Shown here one piece after another: positions 845-57,777 of a DNA stretch of 58,757 nucleotides. The stretch spans positions 1 through 58,757 of the forward strand of contig QIGL01000099.1 in NCBI GenBank assembly GCA_003228915.1, written 5' to 3'. The notes beneath the pieces were generated by a model. That model saw nothing but the letters and a program-made list of their open reading frames with translations. It had not been told where the DNA came from and did no database searches. The stretch's first letter is position 1, and each line of letters starts with the position of its first letter. Source of the stretch: Acidiferrobacteraceae bacterium (lineage in GTDB: Bacteria > Pseudomonadota > Gammaproteobacteria > Acidiferrobacterales > SZUA-150). The position numbers were made by a program, and so were the translations under genes.

Positions 845-2572
845 TTAACATTCTTTAAATATTTGTGCGTTACAGGTTTTGCATACATCCTTGTCTAATT
901 TCCTGTATATAGACGCAATCGCATGTGTTTTTGAATCAAAGAAGTGATCGTTGCCTATTTGTTTTATAAAACAGGATTTGGCAGCAAACTCATATACAGA
1001 CGCCTTTAATCCGACAAAATACAAACCGCCATTTAGTTTCTTGAGACGATTATTTTCTGACACCAGGCCCTCGGCACCGGCAAGATCTATAAAATTTATC
1101 CCACTGCCTACAATCAATATATGATTTATTCTTTCATTATCTGTTATTTTTGCGATCCGATTTTGGATATGATTAATTGATCCAAAATAGATAGACATAT
1201 CTATCCTGATGATTTTTAGTTGCGGACACTGCTTTAACGGTTTTTTGTTTATATTTATAAACTTTCTTGATTTGCCATCTGGAGAGGTATCCAGTGAAAG
1301 CGTAGGGATGGCTGGCGTTGATGTTTTTGCCAAAAATAAAACGAGTGACAGAATCACACCCAGGTAAATAGCAAACTCCAGTTCAAGAAACAGGGTGGCA
1401 AAAAATGTTGTCAGTAAAATTGCAGATTCGGATTTACTGAATCTTATAACCTGGGCAATATGACGGGAGTCAATTAAATTATAGGCAACTAAAAGAATCA
1501 CGCCGCCCATTGAAGCAATAGGAAGATAAGCGGTTAATGGTGCAATCAGCAATACGATACCCATCAAGATAATGGCTGCAAAAATAGCTGACAACGGTGT
1601 TTTGGCCCCCGCTGCATAATTTATCCCGGAACGTGTGAAAGAACCGGAGCCCGCATAACTGGAAAAAAAACTGCCAAAAATATTAGACATGCCTTGTCCG
1701 ATAAACTCCTGGTTCGAGTTTATTCTCTGGCTGGATTTAGATGCCACGGCACGGCTAATTGATACGGCCTCAATCAAGCCCAGCAAGGCGACAGCAAAAG
1801 CTTCGGATGCCAGTGACTTGATCGTGGTAACTGAAAAATCAGGCATTGAGAGTGGTGGTAAATGGGCAGGTATCTCGCCTACCAGAGTTATGTCTGTGGT
1901 AAAGGTTTTTAAATAAATAGCGATAACACTGCCAGCAATCATGCCAATCAGGAGATTGGGTGCTTTTGGAATATATTTTTTTGACAAAAGTGCAGTCACA
2001 AGGGTGACTAACGCAATAATAATCAGGTAAATATTTAAATCATTTATTCGCGAATATAAATCAATCCACGTATGCAGGAATGACTCTCCTTTTGGTACAA
2101 AAATGCCAGTGATATGTTTGAGCTGACTGGTGGCAATCAGGATCGCGGCGCCAGCAGTAAACCCGATCACCACCGTGTGCGAAACGAAATTAACCAGTGC
2201 GCCCAGGCGCGCAAGACCAAAAGCAAGTTGGTACACCCCGGCCAAAAAAGTAAGCGTCAGTGCCATGGAGACAAATTCCGGTGTACCCGTATCAGCGTGA
2301 TGACTCACTGCCGCAAAGACAACAATTGAGATAGCCGTGGTTGGGCCAGACACCAGGTGATTTGAAGAACCAAATAACGCAGCAATAATCGGTGTCACCA
2401 TGGCCGTATACAGGCCATATTCCGGTGGCAAGCCGGCTATGGTTGCAAAAGCAACGCCCTGGGGCAGCACGATCACCGCGCCCGTTAATCCTGCCAGTAA
2501 ATCAGCTTTTAAACTTTCCCTGGTAATCAGTTTGGACCAGGCGAGGAAAGGGAATATCGATACTAGTTTCAT
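845..2572 (-). CDS. SulP family anion transporter with STAS domain
   Basis: A 575-residue protein of usual SulP length. The N-terminal half carries the SulP motif region (VLPQGVAFATIAGLPPEYGL, about residues 36-55) and ten or more membrane segments. The C-terminus from about residue 440 is a cytoplasmic STAS domain. SulP proteins move sulfate, bicarbonate or other anions, often coupled to Na+ or H+. It begins 3 bp after the lysR stop, so the two are almost certainly one transcript. The neighbouring SLC13 permease and NhaD antiporter suggest a sodium-linked anion system. Whether the substrate is sulfate or bicarbonate cannot be read from the sequence. The tail is Cys-rich (CKTC, final C). Confidence 0.93.
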   Translation of the reverse strand: MKLVSIFPFLAWSKLITRESLKADLLAGLTGAVIVLPQGVAFATIAGLPPEYGLYTAMVTPIIAALFGSSNHLVSGPTTAISIVVFAAVSHHADTGTPEFVSMALTLTFLAGVYQLAFGLARLGALVNFVSHTVVIGFTAGAAILIATSQLKHITGIFVPKGESFLHTWIDLYSRINDLNIYLIIIALVTLVTALLSKKYIPKAPNLLIGMIAGSVIAIYLKTFTTDITLVGEIPAHLPPLSMPDFSVTTIKSLASEAFAVALLGLIEAVSISRAVASKSSQRINSNQEFIGQGMSNIFGSFFSSYAGSGSFTRSGINYAAGAKTPLSAIFAAIILMGIVLLIAPLTAYLPIASMGGVILLVAYNLIDSRHIAQVIRFSKSESAILLTTFFATLFLELEFAIYLGVILSLVLFLAKTSTPAIPTLSLDTSPDGKSRKFININKKPLKQCPQLKIIRIDMSIYFGSINHIQNRIAKITDNERINHILIVGSGINFIDLAGAEGLVSENNRLKKLNGGLYFVGLKASVYEFAAKSCFIKQIGNDHFFDSKTHAIASIYRKLDKDVCKTCNAQIFKEC

Positions 2573-48158: not shown

Positions 48159-51100
48159 TCATGGACTGACAGTGAATATCATGACTTCGCTGGAGACTGT
48201 GGGTATGCCCCCATCACCGGGCTCAAACGCTTCCACGCGCCAGTAATAAGTCCCGGCTGTGAGTCCCGTGACTATGGTGCTCATGGTATCGGGTGCCGGT
48301 GGTGCTGCCGGGGGTAAATCAGAGCCACCACCACTACTGCAGGAGCCCAGGGTAAACCCAATTGCCATGATACCTGCTACAACCAGCCAACGTTTTCGTG
48401 GTCGGGTCGCCACGAATCCAAGTAGTAATAGGCCGCTACCGCCAGTCCCGGCGGTAATCCACAGGGGCATTAAGCTGGCTTGCACGACTGGAACAGCCTG
48501 CTTACATGAGTTGGGAAGCGTTGATTCTGTACAGAGATAAATGTTGAAGGAAACCGGGTCTCCCTGGGGATGGACAACCTTATCCCAGGTCAGTGTGATA
48601 TCACCACCCGTTAGGTCTGCGCCATAACCGGGGGCACGGGCAACGGGGATGCTGAGACCGGTATTAGTGACAGTAATCGCAGGTACATTCGTGTTTTGAC
48701 CGCCGATGGAGACAGCACCTGTTATCCCTATTTGTTGGTCATCTGTGCTGCCAGGGGTATCAGAGATTGGTGTCAACGTGATTTGGTAATTGGCTGTGAC
48801 AGTATCTGCATCACTGTCATCACGCACCCCTCTCACTGTAACTGGTAGTGGGAGATTCCAATTATTTGAATCAAAACTTAGTTCGGTTAGTTCGGTTGGA
48901 AAAACCTGGGCCTCAGCACCATTGTTGCTAGATAATCTCACTGAGACATTACCATCCGGCGGACTGGTAAGTTGTACGGTAAAATAATCGATTTGATCAT
49001 TTTCGGCTGTCGTGACTGCTGTTTTTGTCACTGATAAACCAAGGGCGGGTAATATATTCACTGTTTTAGAGACTGTGTTATTTGTGGTATTGGGATCGTA
49101 GCCACCATTTAACACTGTCGCACCAAGTGAATAGCTGGTTGGTGAAAAGCTAGCAGGATCCTGGATGTCTTTTAGCTTAAGTGTGACGTTGGCAGTTGTG
49201 CCCATAAGTATTTCCGGGAAGGTGCAGCTCGCTCGGCTAGATATTATCGACTGGTTTTGATCAAGAAGGTTTTGTATATCACAACTACCTCCATTGTCCG
49301 CGACCACGCTCAGTATAGGCAATGTATTGGGATAATAGGCAGTATTAAAAACTACCCTGGGCGCAGGATCAGGGCCTGTGGTATTGGCAATGTTGAATAC
49401 TGCATCAAATTCTCGATTAACACCGACCTCATTCGGGGCGCTCACTGTCAGCGCTAAATCAGCCTCGGTATTGGTTCGAATATCGCAACCCTGCACATCG
49501 TGATTTAATACACGCAACCAAGGGCTGGCAACGCCATTTTCTAAAACGCGTGCACGCCAACGATAAGCGGTATTTCGTTGCAAGCCTGAAACTACTTCGG
49601 TTATTGTTGCGCTTCCGCTTGCAGAAGCATTAATAGCAGTGCCGAATGAAGAGTCGCCATCAACAAAAGCCTGGCCATTGGCTTTGACTTCCCATTCCAA
49701 CTGCAGCATCGAACCAGCTCCCGCATTGTTTCTAATCACCTGTAACTTAAAGCTGTAACCATGATCGCTTAAACCACAGGCAGGAATCAGTGTAGTGTTG
49801 TCGGTTCGAGAACTAACTAAACGCTGTGTTATGTTGTAGGAGCCATTTGGGGTGAAGGGCGCCAGAGGTGGCGTAAGATCATAAACCCCTGCTGCACCTT
49901 CATCGGTCTCACCATTATCATAGAGATGTGCCCCGATAATAACATTTCCGTAACCATCGCCATTCACATCACCAGCGCCAGCGACAGATATTCCAAATAA
50001 GGCCATGGCTTGATTGCTCTCGACTAACCAAGCTGCGCTGGAATTTACATTAGTACTGGAACCAAGATAAACAAAGGCTGCGCCTTCACTAGTCTCACTA
50101 TTGCTATAGCCATAAGCTCCAACAATAACATCACTAAGGCCATCGCCATTCACATCACCAGCGCTGGCAACGGAGTAACCAAACCTGCCTGTCTGATTAT
50201 TCTCAGCCCAGTCAGCAACTGGACTCGGCCCACTACCAGAATTAACTAACGATGTTAGACCTGAATTAGATCCTAAATAAACAAAGGCTGCTCCTTCATC
50301 GATCTGGTCATTGTCATACCCATATGCTCCAATAATGACATCACCATAACCATCGCCGTTTACATCGCCAGCGCTAGCGACAGATACACCAAACGATGCG
50401 CTGGTCTGAATGCCCCCGAACGGCACAATACCCTGATTACCTTTAGCGAACCAGTCAGCTAAAGGACTTGGTTCTGCGCCAGAACTAAGTATCGTCGACA
50501 ACCCGGTACTTGATCCCAGATAAACAAAAACTGCGCCTTCACCTTTTTTCGCCACTTTATAATTCAGCGCCCCAATAATAACATCCCCAAAGCCATCGCC
50601 ATTGACATCGCCAGCGCTGGCAACGGAACTACCAAACCAGGAGCCGCCCTGGTTGCTTTCAGCACGCCAATCAACAGTAGGGCTCGGTTCTGCGACGGCA
50701 CTAGTTACAATTTTTAGTCCCGTACTCGACCCCAGATAAACAAAAACCGCGCCCTCATTCATCTCGTCATTGTCATATTTAGAAGCCCCGACAATCACAT
50801 CCCCAAACCCGTCCCCATTAACATCACCGGCACTGGCAACAGAAACACCAAATTGGGCATTGGACTGGTTGCTCTCGGCTGTCCAGTCTGCGACCGGGTT
50901 GGGGCCGGTACCAGTATTAATAGTGCTTGTCAGACCCGTCTCTGATCCCAGGTAAACAAATGCTGCACCTTCAAATCTCTGACCATTGTCATAAGAAGAT
51001 GCTCCAACAATCACATCTCCATAACCATCGCCATTGACATCCCCGGCACTGGCAACAGAGGCGCCAAACCATGCATTGTCCTGGTTACTCTCGGCGGTCC

Positions 51101-52211
51101 AGTCGGCCACCGGGCTTGGATCTGTAACAGCACCGGGAATTGTTGTCAGGCCTGTACTCAAGCCCAGGTAAACAAAGGCTGCGCCTTCATCTGTCTGGCC
51201 ATTGTCATAAAATCGCGCGCCAATAATGACATCCCCATATCCATCACCATTGACATCACCGGCACTGGCGACAGAAAAGCCAAAATTGGCTCCGGCCTGA
51301 TTACTTTCAAGAAAAGGGGTGGCTCCGGATAGTACCGGGTCTATCGTAATGGGATAAACCGCATCACTGGCATCAGTGACCAGGGTCAGTATTTGGGTTT
51401 GTTGATCTAGTTCAAAAAAACTCTTGAGTGTTTTGTTATTGGCATCGATGACTTTTAATTTACCGAAGGTGAAACGCTGTTGTTTGTTTTGATCTTTGAG
51501 TGAAATAGTTTGGTTGTTGTTGGTTAAGCTTGCGGTTAACGAGCCGCCTAGTTGAAAGGCGAGCTTGAGGATATTTTGGTTGTTGGCTATTTGGATTTTT
51601 TGGTTATTATTTTTCTGATGTACTTGATCTTGATCTGAATCATTATTATTAGCGGGTGCCGTAAGCGTAAAACCCTGCTCCAACCCTTGCGCGTTGTTGA
51701 TGTACCATTCTTTGAGTTTGGCTGTATGACTGTATTCAATACGGTTGTCTTTAATCTTAGGTTTAGTAATGGTGTCTGTTAGCTCATCTCCATAGGCGAT
51801 GAGTTTTAATGACCAGAGCCAGTCTTTGGCGCCACTTCTTGGGACGACGGTCAGGCCGTCGTCAGTAAAGTAAGTCCTGAAGTCATGGGCCCGGTTCGGG
51901 GCCTGCCAAGCGCTTTTGTTTTTGGGCAAGTCTGTCTTGTCTTGCCAGGTAATATGGTATTCCCGTTGGGCAATGTCTTTTTGGACCTGGTCGAGCCAGG
52001 ACTTTGGTATATCTTTAGGGATGGGTTGGGCTGGTGACACTGCTTTGGTGGGCAACGAGACTGATGCAGGTACGGTCACAGGTGCCAACTGATTAACCGA
52101 ACTCACCGCGAGAGCGCTTATCTCATTGGCATCATTGGCAGGTGCCGCCAAACCAATTGTTGTCACGAAAACCAGGCACGCCGTGCCTGTCACGACATTC
52201 ACTTTCCCCAT
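48159..52211 (-). CDS. Large FG-GAP repeat surface protein with DUF11-like, Calx-beta-like and fibronectin-like domains
   Basis: About 1350 residues from the ATG at 52211, which gives a clean signal peptide ending near GLAAPA; an in-frame ATG at 52292 adds 27 residues. After a beta-rich N-terminal domain come seven FG-GAP/integrin-alpha-type repeats with the calcium-loop motif DVNGDGYGDVIIGA, predicting a seven-bladed propeller. Then follow a fibronectin-like domain, a DUF11-like domain, a Calx-beta-like domain and a final fibronectin-like domain. The last one is interrupted by a membrane hairpin and a lipobox-like LGSC (Cys1291 of 1350). Probably an exported adhesin or binding protein. Confidence 0.8.
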   Translation of the reverse strand: MGKVNVVTGTACLVFVTTIGLAAPANDANEISALAVSSVNQLAPVTVPASVSLPTKAVSPAQPIPKDIPKSWLDQVQKDIAQREYHITWQDKTDLPKNKSAWQAPNRAHDFRTYFTDDGLTVVPRSGAKDWLWSLKLIAYGDELTDTITKPKIKDNRIEYSHTAKLKEWYINNAQGLEQGFTLTAPANNNDSDQDQVHQKNNNQKIQIANNQNILKLAFQLGGSLTASLTNNNQTISLKDQNKQQRFTFGKLKVIDANNKTLKSFFELDQQTQILTLVTDASDAVYPITIDPVLSGATPFLESNQAGANFGFSVASAGDVNGDGYGDVIIGARFYDNGQTDEGAAFVYLGLSTGLTTIPGAVTDPSPVADWTAESNQDNAWFGASVASAGDVNGDGYGDVIVGASSYDNGQRFEGAAFVYLGSETGLTSTINTGTGPNPVADWTAESNQSNAQFGVSVASAGDVNGDGFGDVIVGASKYDNDEMNEGAVFVYLGSSTGLKIVTSAVAEPSPTVDWRAESNQGGSWFGSSVASAGDVNGDGFGDVIIGALNYKVAKKGEGAVFVYLGSSTGLSTILSSGAEPSPLADWFAKGNQGIVPFGGIQTSASFGVSVASAGDVNGDGYGDVIIGAYGYDNDQIDEGAAFVYLGSNSGLTSLVNSGSGPSPVADWAENNQTGRFGYSVASAGDVNGDGLSDVIVGAYGYSNSETSEGAAFVYLGSSTNVNSSAAWLVESNQAMALFGISVAGAGDVNGDGYGNVIIGAHLYDNGETDEGAAGVYDLTPPLAPFTPNGSYNITQRLVSSRTDNTTLIPACGLSDHGYSFKLQVIRNNAGAGSMLQLEWEVKANGQAFVDGDSSFGTAINASASGSATITEVVSGLQRNTAYRWRARVLENGVASPWLRVLNHDVQGCDIRTNTEADLALTVSAPNEVGVNREFDAVFNIANTTGPDPAPRVVFNTAYYPNTLPILSVVADNGGSCDIQNLLDQNQSIISSRASCTFPEILMGTTANVTLKLKDIQDPASFSPTSYSLGATVLNGGYDPNTTNNTVSKTVNILPALGLSVTKTAVTTAENDQIDYFTVQLTSPPDGNVSVRLSSNNGAEAQVFPTELTELSFDSNNWNLPLPVTVRGVRDDSDADTVTANYQITLTPISDTPGSTDDQQIGITGAVSIGGQNTNVPAITVTNTGLSIPVARAPGYGADLTGGDITLTWDKVVHPQGDPVSFNIYLCTESTLPNSCKQAVPVVQASLMPLWITAGTGGSGLLLLGFVATRPRKRWLVVAGIMAIGFTLGSCSSGGGSDLPPAAPPAPDTMSTIVTGLTAGTYYWRVEAFEPGDGGIPTVSSEVMIFTVSP
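48339..48473 (-). other. Membrane hairpin plus lipobox-like motif inside a fibronectin-like domain
   Basis: Encodes two hydrophobic segments joined by a basic turn (GLLLLGFVATRPRKRWLVVAGIM is the central part), ending in FTLGSC followed by SSGGGSD. It lies between the strands NIYLCTESTLPNSC and IVTGLTAGTYYWRV, which together form an otherwise ordinary fibronectin type III fold. The Cys codon is at 48339-48341. Confidence 0.7.
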
Positions 52212-52292
52212 AGATAACAATCCCACTACACTTCTCCCAAATACTGCGCCATCCAAATGTGTATATTGCTTGCACAGCAAATGCTGCTGCAT

Positions 52293-53450: not shown

Positions 53451-53813
53451 ATGGATATCATTTTTGTTCGTGATCTGAAGATCGACTGTATTATTGGCGT
53501 TTGGGAATGGGAACGAAAAATCCGCCAGACTTTACACATTGATCTGGACCTGGGAACAGATATTTCCAAATCCGCGGCCAGTGACAATCTTGATGACACC
53601 CTCGACTACAAAGCAATCACCAATGGCATCAGGGATTTTGTTTCAGACAGTGAGTTCAAGCTAGTAGAGACCCTGGCCGAAAAAATCGCTGCAATGGTAC
53701 AGGAGAAATTTAATGTGTCGTGGATACGTGTTGTCATCAATAAACGCGGTGCCTTGCGCCATGCCCGTGATGTCGGCGTCATTATCGAGCGCGGCATTAA
53801 TCCAGATAAATAA
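53451..53813 (+). CDS. folB: Dihydroneopterin aldolase
   Basis: A 120-residue FolB: MDIIFVRDLKIDCIIGVWEWERKIRQ with the active-site Glu region, DDTLDYKAI in the middle, and a C-terminal INKRGALRHARDVGVIIER containing the catalytic Lys. It converts dihydroneopterin to 6-hydroxymethyl-dihydropterin in folate synthesis. It is followed 22 bp later by folK, which uses its product. Confidence 0.96.
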   Translation: MDIIFVRDLKIDCIIGVWEWERKIRQTLHIDLDLGTDISKSAASDNLDDTLDYKAITNGIRDFVSDSEFKLVETLAEKIAAMVQEKFNVSWIRVVINKRGALRHARDVGVIIERGINPDK

Positions 53814-53835
53814 ATGGTCATTTTAATTCGTTAAA

Positions 53836-54351
53836 ATGCCCGAGATTTACATCAGTATCGGTAGCAATATAAACCGGCAACGTAATATCCAGCATGCAGT
53901 TAATCTATTAGTTTCAAATTTCTCTAATATCAAGTGTTCAAGTGTTTACGAATCAGAGGCCATGGGTTTTGACGGTGACGCATTTTATAACCTGGTCGTT
54001 ACAACAAACACAAGCGAATCGCTCAAGGCAGTCTTACAAATATTAAAAAAAATAGAACAGGACTGTGGACGCGGATCTGAAACAAACAAGCCTGAAAAAA
54101 AATTTTCCCCCCGTACCATTGACCTGGACTTGCTGTTATTTGGCAATCAAATTTATCATGACGAACACATTGATATACCCCGGATGGATATCACTGAATA
54201 TGCATTTGTTTTATTGCCGCTATCAGAACTGGCGCCAGATTTGCAACATCCGGAATTAAAAATCAGACTGGATGATTTGTGGCAAAGTTTTGACGGGGAC
54301 AAGAAAAAACAGAAACAAGTTTCATTTCTACCGACAGTAAATAACAGTTAA
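53836..54351 (+). CDS. folK: 6-hydroxymethyl-7,8-dihydropterin pyrophosphokinase
   Basis: A 171-residue HPPK. It has the opening ISIGSNINRQRNIQHAV, the middle YNLVVTTNT segment, and the family signature KFSPRTIDLDLLLFG that binds pterin and Mg-ATP. It catalyses the step after FolB in folate synthesis. Confidence 0.96.
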   Translation: MPEIYISIGSNINRQRNIQHAVNLLVSNFSNIKCSSVYESEAMGFDGDAFYNLVVTTNTSESLKAVLQILKKIEQDCGRGSETNKPEKKFSPRTIDLDLLLFGNQIYHDEHIDIPRMDITEYAFVLLPLSELAPDLQHPELKIRLDDLWQSFDGDKKKQKQVSFLPTVNNS

Positions 54352-54377
54352 GCTTTTTTGTGAATTTTTGTCTTACC

Positions 54378-54410
54378 AAAAAAAGGGCTGCGCCTGGTAG
54401 GTCGCAGCCC
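54378..54410 (-). terminator. Terminator of the propeptide-like gene
   Basis: Stem GGGCTGCG/CGCAGCCC (54385-54392 and 54403-54410) followed on the minus strand by seven or so T residues. It lies 30 bp after the stop of the propeptide-like gene and between it and convergent folK. Confidence 0.85.
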
Positions 54411-54440
54411 GGGTTGATTGGTTGTAATGATTGTTTTTTA

Positions 54441-55097
54441 TTACAGTGGTTGTAGCTCCTGCCACCAGTTCGGGCTGGCGCCTTCGACTTCACCAGATTC
54501 GTAAATACTATTGGCCATGTTCAGCGAGGCCATGCCCGGTGCACTATCTAACAAATAAATATTACCGAAGTTCATTTTTTGTTTTATTGTAAGCCCTTTT
54601 GCAGTAACCCACTGCTTAACTTTTTTGTCATTCCAGTCGGAGTTAAAAGTTACCAGGATACCGCCAGGTAGCGCCCTGCGCTGGCCACCACCGGACTTAC
54701 TATTGGTAAATACCGGTGAAAGCGAACCTTTCATGGTTCCACTTAAAGCTGACAGAGATTGCTTTGAGTCACTGGCCGCACTTATATCCCAAAGTTTTAC
54801 CGTAGCAGATGTTTGCTTACCGACCGCCGCAGCAGAAGCCATATTTGCTTTCATTGTACTACCAGCGCCCGGCGTGATTAGCTCGGCTACAATATTATTG
54901 TCCTGGAAAATAGTGCGTTTTCGCTTGCCGTCATACCAGTAATAATTACCGGACAATTTTGTGTCAGACCCACTGGCGGTATCACCGGATTTATCACGTT
55001 TGGGTAAATCGCCCATTGCCCCAACAGTTGTTGATAAAGTAACTGTTAGCAGCACCATTAAAGTTCTAAACCAGTGTGATGTGTTGTTGAGTTTCAT
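54441..55097 (-). CDS. Secreted subtilase propeptide-like protein (stand-alone)
   Basis: A 218-residue protein with a signal peptide ending near TVGA. The C-terminal 80 residues have the pattern of a subtilisin propeptide: GGILVTFNSDWNDKKVKQWVT, a GLTIKQKMNFGNIYLL strand pair, and the ending EVEGASPNWW. This resembles the VEYAEPN-type junction that normally precedes an S8 catalytic domain. It lies 58 bp downstream of a kexin-like protease gene lacking its own propeptide, and a terminator closes the pair. A trans-acting chaperone or inhibitor role is inferred. The N-terminal 130 residues, partly low-complexity Ser/Thr/Ala, are not recognised. Confidence 0.65.
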   Translation of the reverse strand: MKLNNTSHWFRTLMVLLTVTLSTTVGAMGDLPKRDKSGDTASGSDTKLSGNYYWYDGKRKRTIFQDNNIVAELITPGAGSTMKANMASAAAVGKQTSATVKLWDISAASDSKQSLSALSGTMKGSLSPVFTNSKSGGGQRRALPGGILVTFNSDWNDKKVKQWVTAKGLTIKQKMNFGNIYLLDSAPGMASLNMANSIYESGEVEGASPNWWQELQPL

Positions 55098-55155
55098 AAG
55101 AACGTCCTCATACCATTAATTTTTAAAATTTTTAAATCAGTTTCAGCAAAGGTGT

Positions 55156-56793
55156 TTACGTGCCGCTAATCGCCAGAGACCAGCTACCCCCCGCGGTTTC
55201 AGTATCACCCGTATACCCGTCCCGCACTCGCAGGGTCCAGTCACCATTGGCCACTTCACCTAAATGGCGAACACTGGTAAAGGTCCAGCCACCGCTGTAA
55301 CCCGCACCGCAACTTATACTTACACCTCCGATATTCCTGCACCAGTGAGCGTTTGCCAATTTACTAACCGTGCCCGCCGGGCTGACCAATTCTACTTCAA
55401 GATCGCCAAACCAGGTGTGGTCAGATGTGTAGGTAACGGCGACAGTTTCAACTGCAGTCAGTCCACTACCGGCAACAGTAATGGTGTTGGTTAGCTGGGC
55501 GCCAAACACAGGGGTTTGTTCTACTGTACCGCTACCATCTAGAGCCGGCGCGCCAAAGGTTTGCGGGCCAACAGTGAAAGTCGATTGAGTACCAAGATTG
55601 GTATAGCCCACCGTTGCCGTGACAGCCGCCTGGGCATCAATCACACCAAAACCGTATTTATGGTTGATATCGAGTCCGGCACCATTAATGGCCCAGTCGC
55701 CGTCGCTGGTGTCATTTTTTCGTGCGGTCTGGGCCAGGATTTGGCGCACATCCCGCCATCCCAGTGTAGGTTTGGCCTCCAACAACAAGGCCACGACCCC
55801 GCTGACTACCGGGGTGGCCGAGGAGGTGCCATTAAAACACTGGGTATAATTGGTCGCACTCATGTAGTCCTCAACCTCGGCGCCGGTGTTATAACCCAGG
55901 GCACCGGTCCGGTCGGTGGTGGTGGTGGTATTGACGTTGCCAGTAAAATTCGACTGGCACCAGTTACCGGATGGGGCCGCTACCAGGATACTGGCGCCCT
56001 CTTGTGAATACACCGAGCGTACGCCACGATCATCCGCCGCCGCCACGGTAATCACATTCTCATTATTCGAGGTCTCACTGTAATTGGTATCGACCCGGCC
56101 ACCCGGCGGTGTGTTGGCATCATAACCATGAGAGTTGCCGGCAGCAAATACATATACAGCACCAAGACCGCCACGACCGGTACTGACACCGGAACTGATG
56201 GCCGCCGTGATGATTGCATTCAGGGGGGAAAGAAAACCAACACTACCACCAGGACCCCAACTGTTATTGTAAACATCATTATTGGCAATACCACGAGACA
56301 AAGCGTCAGCTACATTGGCGTCTGTGCCATTTTGCAGCATATTGTAACCCACCAGTTCAGCGGCATATGCCACCCCCCGAACGCCGATATCATTTAAACC
56401 AACGGCTGCAGAAACCCCTGACACAGCAGTACCATGTTCGCCAGTAGTGGGGTCTGTAGACATATTCAGGTAGTTATAACTCGCACCGGCCACGACATTT
56501 GCCGCTAAATCTTCGTGGGCAATCTCGAGACCATCATCGACTATAGCGATGCGCACGCCCGCGCCTTCATAAGTGGCCCATACAGTATCTACATTAATGT
56601 CTTGACCAACTGTGCCACCCTGCTGACCTGTGTTATCCAGGTGCCACTGATCTGAAAAAAGCGGATCCATAGTACCGGGAACAACACCACCGCCACCGCC
56701 ACCGCTGCCGCTGCCGCTCGAACTACCGCCACAGGCAATCAGGAACAGGGCGGGCAGAGTGACCAGAACGATTCTTATATTTTTCAATAGCAT
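55156..56793 (-). CDS. Kexin-like S8 serine protease lipoprotein with P domain
   Basis: A 545-residue protein. Signal peptide with lipobox LIAC (Cys21) and a Gly/Ser tether to residue 36. The S8 domain begins right away with DPLFSDQWHLDNTGQ. Catalytic residues: Asp86 in IVDDG, His120 in GEHGTAV, oxyanion Asn220 in AAGNSHG, Ser324 in NGTSSATP. The C-terminal 130 residues are a P/proprotein convertase domain (HTWFGDLEVELVSPAGT; GDWTLRVRDGYTGD). The usual N-terminal propeptide is missing; a propeptide-like gene follows. Predicted to be anchored to the outer membrane and to act on proteins in the periplasm or at the surface. Confidence 0.88.
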   Translation of the reverse strand: MLLKNIRIVLVTLPALFLIACGGSSSGSGSGGGGGGVVPGTMDPLFSDQWHLDNTGQQGGTVGQDINVDTVWATYEGAGVRIAIVDDGLEIAHEDLAANVVAGASYNYLNMSTDPTTGEHGTAVSGVSAAVGLNDIGVRGVAYAAELVGYNMLQNGTDANVADALSRGIANNDVYNNSWGPGGSVGFLSPLNAIITAAISSGVSTGRGGLGAVYVFAAGNSHGYDANTPPGGRVDTNYSETSNNENVITVAAADDRGVRSVYSQEGASILVAAPSGNWCQSNFTGNVNTTTTTDRTGALGYNTGAEVEDYMSATNYTQCFNGTSSATPVVSGVVALLLEAKPTLGWRDVRQILAQTARKNDTSDGDWAINGAGLDINHKYGFGVIDAQAAVTATVGYTNLGTQSTFTVGPQTFGAPALDGSGTVEQTPVFGAQLTNTITVAGSGLTAVETVAVTYTSDHTWFGDLEVELVSPAGTVSKLANAHWCRNIGGVSISCGAGYSGGWTFTSVRHLGEVANGDWTLRVRDGYTGDTETAGGSWSLAISGT

Positions 56794-57018: not shown

Positions 57019-57777
57019 TCAAAACACAATCGACCGACCACCACAGACTGGAATTATCTGACCAGTGGTATAATCGGCGTCCCGAATCAAAAAAAGTATG
57101 GCCTTGGCAATATCATCGGGACTGCCCATTTTTTTAAGTGGTGTGCTGTCAAGAATTTTTGATTTTACTTTTTCATCAATTTCATTCTCCGGCCACAGGA
57201 TGGCGCCGGGGGCGATGCCATTTACCCGTATGTCCGGCCCCAGTTCCCGCGCCAAAGTTTTAGTCATCATAATATTGCCGGCCTTGGCGATATTATATAT
57301 GGCGTGATTTTTCAGGGGGCGCTCACCGTGGATATCCGCCATGTTGATTATGCAGCCTTTACGTTTTTTTAAGTACGGTGCGGCGGCCTGGGCCAGGAAA
57401 AACGGTGCCTTCAGGTTGGTGCCCATTAAATCCTGCCATTGCTCATCAAGTGTATTATGGTCAGAAGCCTGATCGATAGGTGTCGGGTAAAAACTGGAGG
57501 CATTGTTAATCAACACATCAAGGCCATTAAAAAATCCCGCCGCCTGTTCGACTAATGACGGTATCTGATCGGTAACCAGTAAATCACCCTGGATTATGGC
57601 GGCACTATGGGCGCGCTTTTCATTTAGCTCGTTGGCTAATGATTTGGCGTCCTGCTCAGAATTACCATAGTGGATAACCAGGCGCATACCCTGCCCATGT
57701 AAGACACGGGCCACATGAGCGCCCACGCGCCGGGCGGCACCCGTAATTAAAACCGTTTTTTCCTGGGCTGCTGTCAT
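57019..57777 (-). CDS. SDR-family pteridine reductase-like protein
   Basis: A 252-residue short-chain dehydrogenase. The cofactor motif TGAARRVGAHVA with paired arginines is typical of pteridine reductases (PTR1/FolM). It has LINNASSFYPTP, the catalytic YNIAK, a Ser-equivalent Asp-rich INMADIHG segment, and VNGIAPGAILWPE. Such enzymes reduce dihydrobiopterin, dihydromonapterin or dihydrofolate with NADPH, fitting the nearby folB and folK. It is divergent from the MidA-like gene. Confidence 0.85.
   Translation of the reverse strand: MTAAQEKTVLITGAARRVGAHVARVLHGQGMRLVIHYGNSEQDAKSLANELNEKRAHSAAIIQGDLLVTDQIPSLVEQAAGFFNGLDVLINNASSFYPTPIDQASDHNTLDEQWQDLMGTNLKAPFFLAQAAAPYLKKRKGCIINMADIHGERPLKNHAIYNIAKAGNIMMTKTLARELGPDIRVNGIAPGAILWPENEIDEKVKSKILDSTPLKKMGSPDDIAKAILFLIRDADYTTGQIIPVCGGRSIVF

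Follow-up and report, generated by a model that had tools for sequence, protein, structure and literature searches.

We report that a kexin-like S8 protease lacking a propeptide and an exported protein of 218 aa, encoded by consecutive genes in a stretch of DNA of 58,757 nucleotides from an Acidiferrobacteraceae bacterium (the window, by which we mean the whole of this stretch), constitute a divergent, lipid-anchored branch of the ASP-ORF2 arrangement, an arrangement that is itself already known. The 218-aa protein is a dislocated prosegment, homologous to the prosegments that are fused to other S8 proteases, and the two genes very probably encode a protease and its own prosegment, the latter folding and inhibiting the membrane-held enzyme in trans. 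The original prediction, made from the sequence, of a separately encoded propeptide is supported by profile and fold matches, while the chaperone or inhibitor function that it proposed is one that we, too, infer. It was essentially right, though it missed the precedent of Aeromonas sobria, in which the protease ASP has no propeptide and requires for its maturation ORF2, encoded just downstream (PMC5638518). The C-terminal Gln-Pro-Lys of ORF2 interacts around the catalytic site of ASP, and asp-orf2 operons have been reported in Vibrio, Shewanella, Chromobacterium and Pseudoalteromonas (PMC5638518); a survey from 2022 treats ASP as the exception among the subtilases in that its propeptide is absent (PMC9549277).

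The window protease was originally described as passing from a lipobox and a short Gly/Ser tether directly into the catalytic domain, with no room for a propeptide, and this description stands: the lipobox cysteine is residue 21, the catalytic domain starts at D43 (DPLFSDQWHL) and the mere 21 residues between them cannot accommodate a propeptide. The catalytic Asp, His, Asn and Ser are all present, both the S8 domain and the P-domain are intact, and a lipobox is carried by most proteases of this branch, the window protease included. Its closest solved matches in a PDB sequence search are kexin, furin and Aeromonas sobria ASP (3HJR, 6e-41). Kexin and furin read the basic P1 residues of their substrates by means of two acids. 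At the equivalents of furin Asp258 and Asp306, which make up the acidic S1 pocket by which the kexin subfamily S8B is recognised, the window protease has glycine and serine, and as both S1 acids are lost we name the enzyme kexin-like solely for its fold and its domains. The two remaining S8 proteases of this genome (L050 on contig C10 and L049 on C29) have N-terminal extensions resembling fused prosegments, the extension of L050 being clear (...VEYAEPDQL ahead of the catalytic domain), which makes the split enzyme exceptional in its genome.

The coordinates of the protease, its partner and their parts are collected in Table 1. The partner gene lies on the same strand, 58 bp downstream of the protease gene, and is closed, as had been proposed, by a terminator, whose transcript folds as GGGCUGCG...CGCAGCCC-UUUUUUU, a hairpin with a U-run (-21.3 kcal/mol, z -3.4); a generic terminator scan overlooked this hairpin, which direct folding of the transcript revealed. 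The pair stands among folate genes, flanked by folB/folK-like genes (53451-54351, +) and a folM-resembling SDR gene (57019-57777, -), and no functional link to these is evident. Elsewhere in the window (48159-52292, -) is a gene for a 1377-aa protein in which FG-GAP-like repeats are numerous (ASAGDVNGDGYGDVIIGA). Some 100 residues from its C-terminus stands a sorting-like motif (GSGLLLLGFVATRPRKR), and after this motif comes a stretch resembling a lipobox, LGSCSSGGGS.

Table 1. Positions, in the window, of the protease and prosegment genes and of their features
Feature	Position	Strand	Basis
Kexin-like S8 protease, 545 aa, without propeptide; has P-domain; predicted lipoprotein	55156..56793	-	ORF and domain matches
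Signal peptide of lipoprotein type, with lipobox LIAC (Cys21, Gly at +2)	56731..56793	-	Sequence
Tether, 21 residues, Gly/Ser-rich, from Cys21 to catalytic domain; prosegment absent	56668..56730	-	Sequence
S8 catalytic domain (Asp86, His120, Asn220, Ser324)	55645..56565	-	PF00082 1e-40; same coordinates in genome search
S1-pocket stretch: Gly183, Ser239 at the kexin/furin specificity Asp positions	56077..56247	-	Alignment, sequence
P-domain	55174..55452	-	PF01483 5.5e-16
Exported 218-aa protein: external (dislocated) prosegment and putative chaperone-inhibitor	54441..55097	-	Pfam, AF2, profile, fold matches
N-terminal prosegment domain, residues 48-131, WYDG motif, predicted beta-alpha-beta-beta-alpha-beta; homologous to first half of fused prosegments	54705..54956	-	Profile, AF2
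C-terminal prosegment domain, residues 142-210, propeptide fold proper	54468..54674	-	PF22148, AF2 (pLDDT about 96), VIA/Foldseek
C-terminal tail SPNWWQELQPL-COOH, predicted in active-site cleft, Leu218 as P1	54444..54476	-	Alignment of 20 relatives; ORF2 analogy (PMC5638518)
Intrinsic terminator 3' of prosegment gene	54370..54420	-	RNA folding

The sole Pfam match of the 218-aa protein is to the fervidolysin-type propeptides (PF22148, Fervidolysin_NPro-like), over residues 137-210 and with a score of 20.6 bits against a gathering cut-off of 21, which is passed by the relatives L004 (23.5 bits), L009 (23.0), L021 (25.0) and L035 (25.9). A comparison by hhalign of the family profile with a profile of the N-terminal prosegments fused to S8 proteases gave an alignment over residues 53-214 (97.0%, E 9e-11; 96.6% with a smaller family profile), from which it follows that nearly the whole of the mature protein is a dislocated prosegment of two parts. 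The original proposal of a propeptide-like C-terminus needs correction in one respect: the homology is not confined to that end. A profile test for an internal repeat found no detectable sequence similarity between the two prosegment domains, and so we claim no origin by duplication. Invariant in the alignment of 20 prosegments are G145, G188, A195, V204, P209 and W212. The likeness noted earlier between the terminal SPNWW and the junction of fused enzymes is also borne out: in fused relatives ...YAEPN is followed by a short linker and then DPLYPRQWHL, and in the split pairs the prosegment ends in ...ASPNWW with 4-6 further residues and the protease begins DPLFSDQWHL.

The window protein has no match to PF18492 (ORF_2_N) at E<=1, and we accordingly keep it outside that family; its relative L009 matches weakly across the propeptide body (14.2 bits, against a gathering score of 29.2). 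A PF18492 search of 369 genomes of the class was without any hit, even for its controls, and so carries no weight as to the absence of the family. By hhalign, the family showed nothing (1.7%) against a single ORF2 sequence from Vibrio campbellii, a record of which carries an ASP-type pair with a partner that matches PF18492 at 1e-25, and neither the 218-aa protein nor its profiles retrieved more than chance hits from the PDB sequences. As the direct hhalign comparison was empty, it is the fold, the context of the genes and the protease tree that link the family to ORF2. In this tree the window protease, its relatives, the ASP-type Vibrio enzyme and, provisionally, one fused enzyme (L011) lie on one side of a branch with support of 99/98, and the other fused enzymes lie on the opposite side.

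Structure prediction of the partner, which had been proposed as a check, matched it to pro-subtilisin, the PC1/3 prodomain and ORF2; the refuting outcome named at the outset, a fold unrelated to subtilase propeptides, thus did not arise. With 11 sequences, AF2 modelled the N-terminal half poorly (pLDDT 60) and the C-terminal domain alone well, the closest solved structures to the latter being the PC1/3 prodomain, subtilisin prosegments and the stand-alone inhibitor POIA1. With 20 relatives the model improved to a pLDDT of 78 and a pTM of 0.67 (about 96 for the pLDDT of the C-terminal domain) and comprised tandem beta-alpha-beta-beta-alpha-beta domains, at about 59-131 and about 147-209. Foldseek returned ORF2 (3WQB_B) with probability 1.00, 25% identity and 2.8 A, and the PC1/3 prodomain with 0.99; the top three in VIA were pro-subtilisin E (Z 7.1), ORF2 (Z 6.8, 91 residues, 2.3 A) and PC1/3 (Z 6.7), and POIA1 (1V5I) scored Z 6.2 with the first model and Z 6.0 with the 20-relative model. 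RRM/ferredoxin-like and ACT domains stand slightly below the propeptide matches in the fold lists and, with VIA Z scores below 8 and RRM-like folds so close behind, the fold by itself is not decisive. These lesser matches would suit an unrelated envelope protein of ferredoxin-like or RRM-like fold whose place beside the protease is incidental; we consider this very improbable, and it is largely refuted by the adjacency of the genes in at least 20 loci, the 97% profile match and the conservation of the terminal SPNWW. Sequence, context and fold are together decisive for the identity of the partner as a prosegment.

At least 20 loci (L003-L010, L020, L021, L023, L034, L035 and L040-L045, plus others) have a homologous prosegment gene next to a homologous protease that lacks a propeptide, a recurrence which argues that the pairing is not due to chance. 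A search with the protease in 369 genomes of the class found matches in 18, the window's own genome included, and in many of these the protease gene is followed by one for an exported protein, about 200 aa long, with a ASPNWWQEMVAR-like motif at its end; further relatives came from related orders and, in genome_contigs, from Thiomicrorhabdus, Wenzhouxiangella and Candidatus Binatota. The prosegment relatives were reached only by way of the protease matches: a single-sequence search with the 218-aa protein, in 96 related genomes and genome_contigs, found no relatives outside its own genome. In a search of the phylum with profile A1, the window alone matched among 398 evenly drawn genomes, so the system is sparse. 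By inspection, the prosegment is itself an apparent lipoprotein in L007, L009, L010, L021, L023 and L047. Draft assemblies commonly contain split genes, and an assembly or annotation artefact, with a frameshift cutting one fused gene in two, might be suspected here; but the order of protease then prosegment is the reverse of that in the fused enzyme, each gene has its own signal sequence and the protease-first order recurs in independent genomes. Gene order and recurrence thus refute this reading, to which we attach a negligible probability.

The arrangement of the pairs varies. In L006/L053 and L045 the order is reversed, the prosegment gene coming immediately before that of the protease, with a GTGA stop/start overlap from prosegment to protease in L053 (2400-3700, -) and the L045 locus at 954-1640 (+); the proteases of these loci group together in the tree (93/85). 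A Thiomicrorhabdus MAG has two protease-prosegment pairs in tandem (L040, 2816-7935). Genome G103 yielded a single prosegment (L047, C1:111195-111713), which has no adjoining protease, and two propeptide-less proteases (L012 and L022) on another contig; this orphan, an apparent lipoprotein ending ATPNWWQPATPK, lies between ygfZ-like and nadE-like genes. Three pairs (L013, L016 and L024) diverge further and come closer to the ASP type; their downstream proteins, of 189-202 aa, end in Lys, Arg and Glu, respectively, and those of L013 and L016 score above the PF22148 cut-off.

The last residue of the prosegment is Arg in 18 of the 20 aligned sequences, the others being Leu in the window and Gln in L045 (Binatota); the Vibrio ORF2 also ends in Gln. 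Both S1 acids are Asp in 16 pairs and, by inspection, in L006 and the unlinked G103 set, and the prosegments of all of these end in Arg or Lys. The acids are lost in the window protease, L045, L003 and L007, with the prosegments of the last two still ending in Arg. Given two such exceptions and a Fisher test (p = 0.026) in which kinship is ignored, we offer the association of tail residue and S1 acids as a suggestion and not as a result. It is conceivable, if on balance doubtful, that P1 and S1 co-vary, Arg/Lys ends accompanying two S1 acids and loss of the acids accompanying a tail in Leu (window) or Gln (Binatota), and that in some genomes one unlinked prosegment serves several proteases in trans. 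For the window enzyme, the C-terminal Leu and the loss of both S1-pocket acids suggest a non-basic cleavage specificity, perhaps with a preference for a hydrophobic P1. If P1 and S1 do co-vary, the terminal residue encoded by a prosegment gene would report where its protease prefers to cleave.

In the mechanism that we propose, both proteins would be exported by Sec, and a lipid on Cys21 would anchor the protease in a membrane, probably, given the Gly at +2, the outer membrane, at its periplasmic face or, as originally suggested, at the cell surface. In the periplasm the 218-aa prosegment would bind the nascent catalytic domain in trans and template its folding through the beta-alpha-beta-beta-alpha-beta body, with the C-terminal tail, QELQPL-COOH, occupying the substrate cleft much as a cleavage product does, as an inhibitor with Leu218 in S1; the complex would then stay inactive until its prosegment comes off or is broken down. 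The partner might instead be a standing inhibitor, an immunity-like guard of the envelope after the manner of POIA1, and the protease fold unaided and be kept silent inside the cell. Some fused subtilase propeptides are mainly inhibitors, POIA1 is among the structural matches of the partner (1V5I) and the prosegment gene of one genome is unlinked from its proteases (L047), all of which would fit such a guard. We nevertheless think it unlikely, since the window protease is without any prosegment, a condition in which ASP cannot mature without ORF2 (PMC5638518), and the co-conservation of the gene pair with the missing prosegment indicates a need in folding; guard and foldase roles are, moreover, not mutually exclusive.

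These loci make of the propeptide-less arrangement a recurrent lineage, present in gammaproteobacteria of marine and sulfur-oxidising kinds as well as in Candidatus Binatota. ORF2 is too diverged for a sequence match here, whereas the window branch is clearly homologous to the fused prosegments and so ties external chaperones to ordinary prosegments by sequence in addition to fold. The matched pairs, in either gene order, as tandem copies or with an unlinked copy, are material for the study of how foldase and client remain matched after splitting, and the same set allows one to ask if the last residue of the foldase predicts the specificity of the protease.

The nearest known system is ASP-ORF2, represented by PDB entries 3HJR, 3WQB and 2MK4. 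Like ASP, the window protease has an S8 domain and a P-domain and no prosegment; like ORF2, its partner is exported, encoded just downstream on the same strand (a layout kept in relatives), predicted to have the subtilase-propeptide fold and terminated by Gln-Pro-X. The window protease is a lipoprotein, whereas ASP is a secreted enzyme, and the partner differs from ORF2 in being larger (218 versus about 150 aa), in its extra N-terminal domain, predicted to be folded, in belonging to a family recognisable as a prosegment by sequence profile while lacking a PF18492 match, and in ending with Leu rather than Lys. VvsA-VvsB of Vibrio was set aside as a further precedent, being described as chymotrypsin-like with its own propeptide. 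With the fused two-domain prosegments of fervidolysin type (PF22148; L014, L015, L018 and L019) the partner shares profile homology over nearly its full mature length and a C-terminal boundary that coincides with the propeptide/catalytic junction, but it is a separate gene, placed after rather than before the protease. POIA1 (PDB 1ITP, 1V5I), a stand-alone subtilase-propeptide inhibitor, resembles the predicted fold of the C-terminal domain; it consists of one domain, whereas the window protein comprises two and is encoded as one of a gene pair with its protease. Kexin and furin (S8B), finally, share with the window enzyme a P-domain and are among the best PDB sequence matches of its catalytic domain, from which both S1-pocket Asp residues are missing and to which, unlike theirs, the prosegment is not fused.
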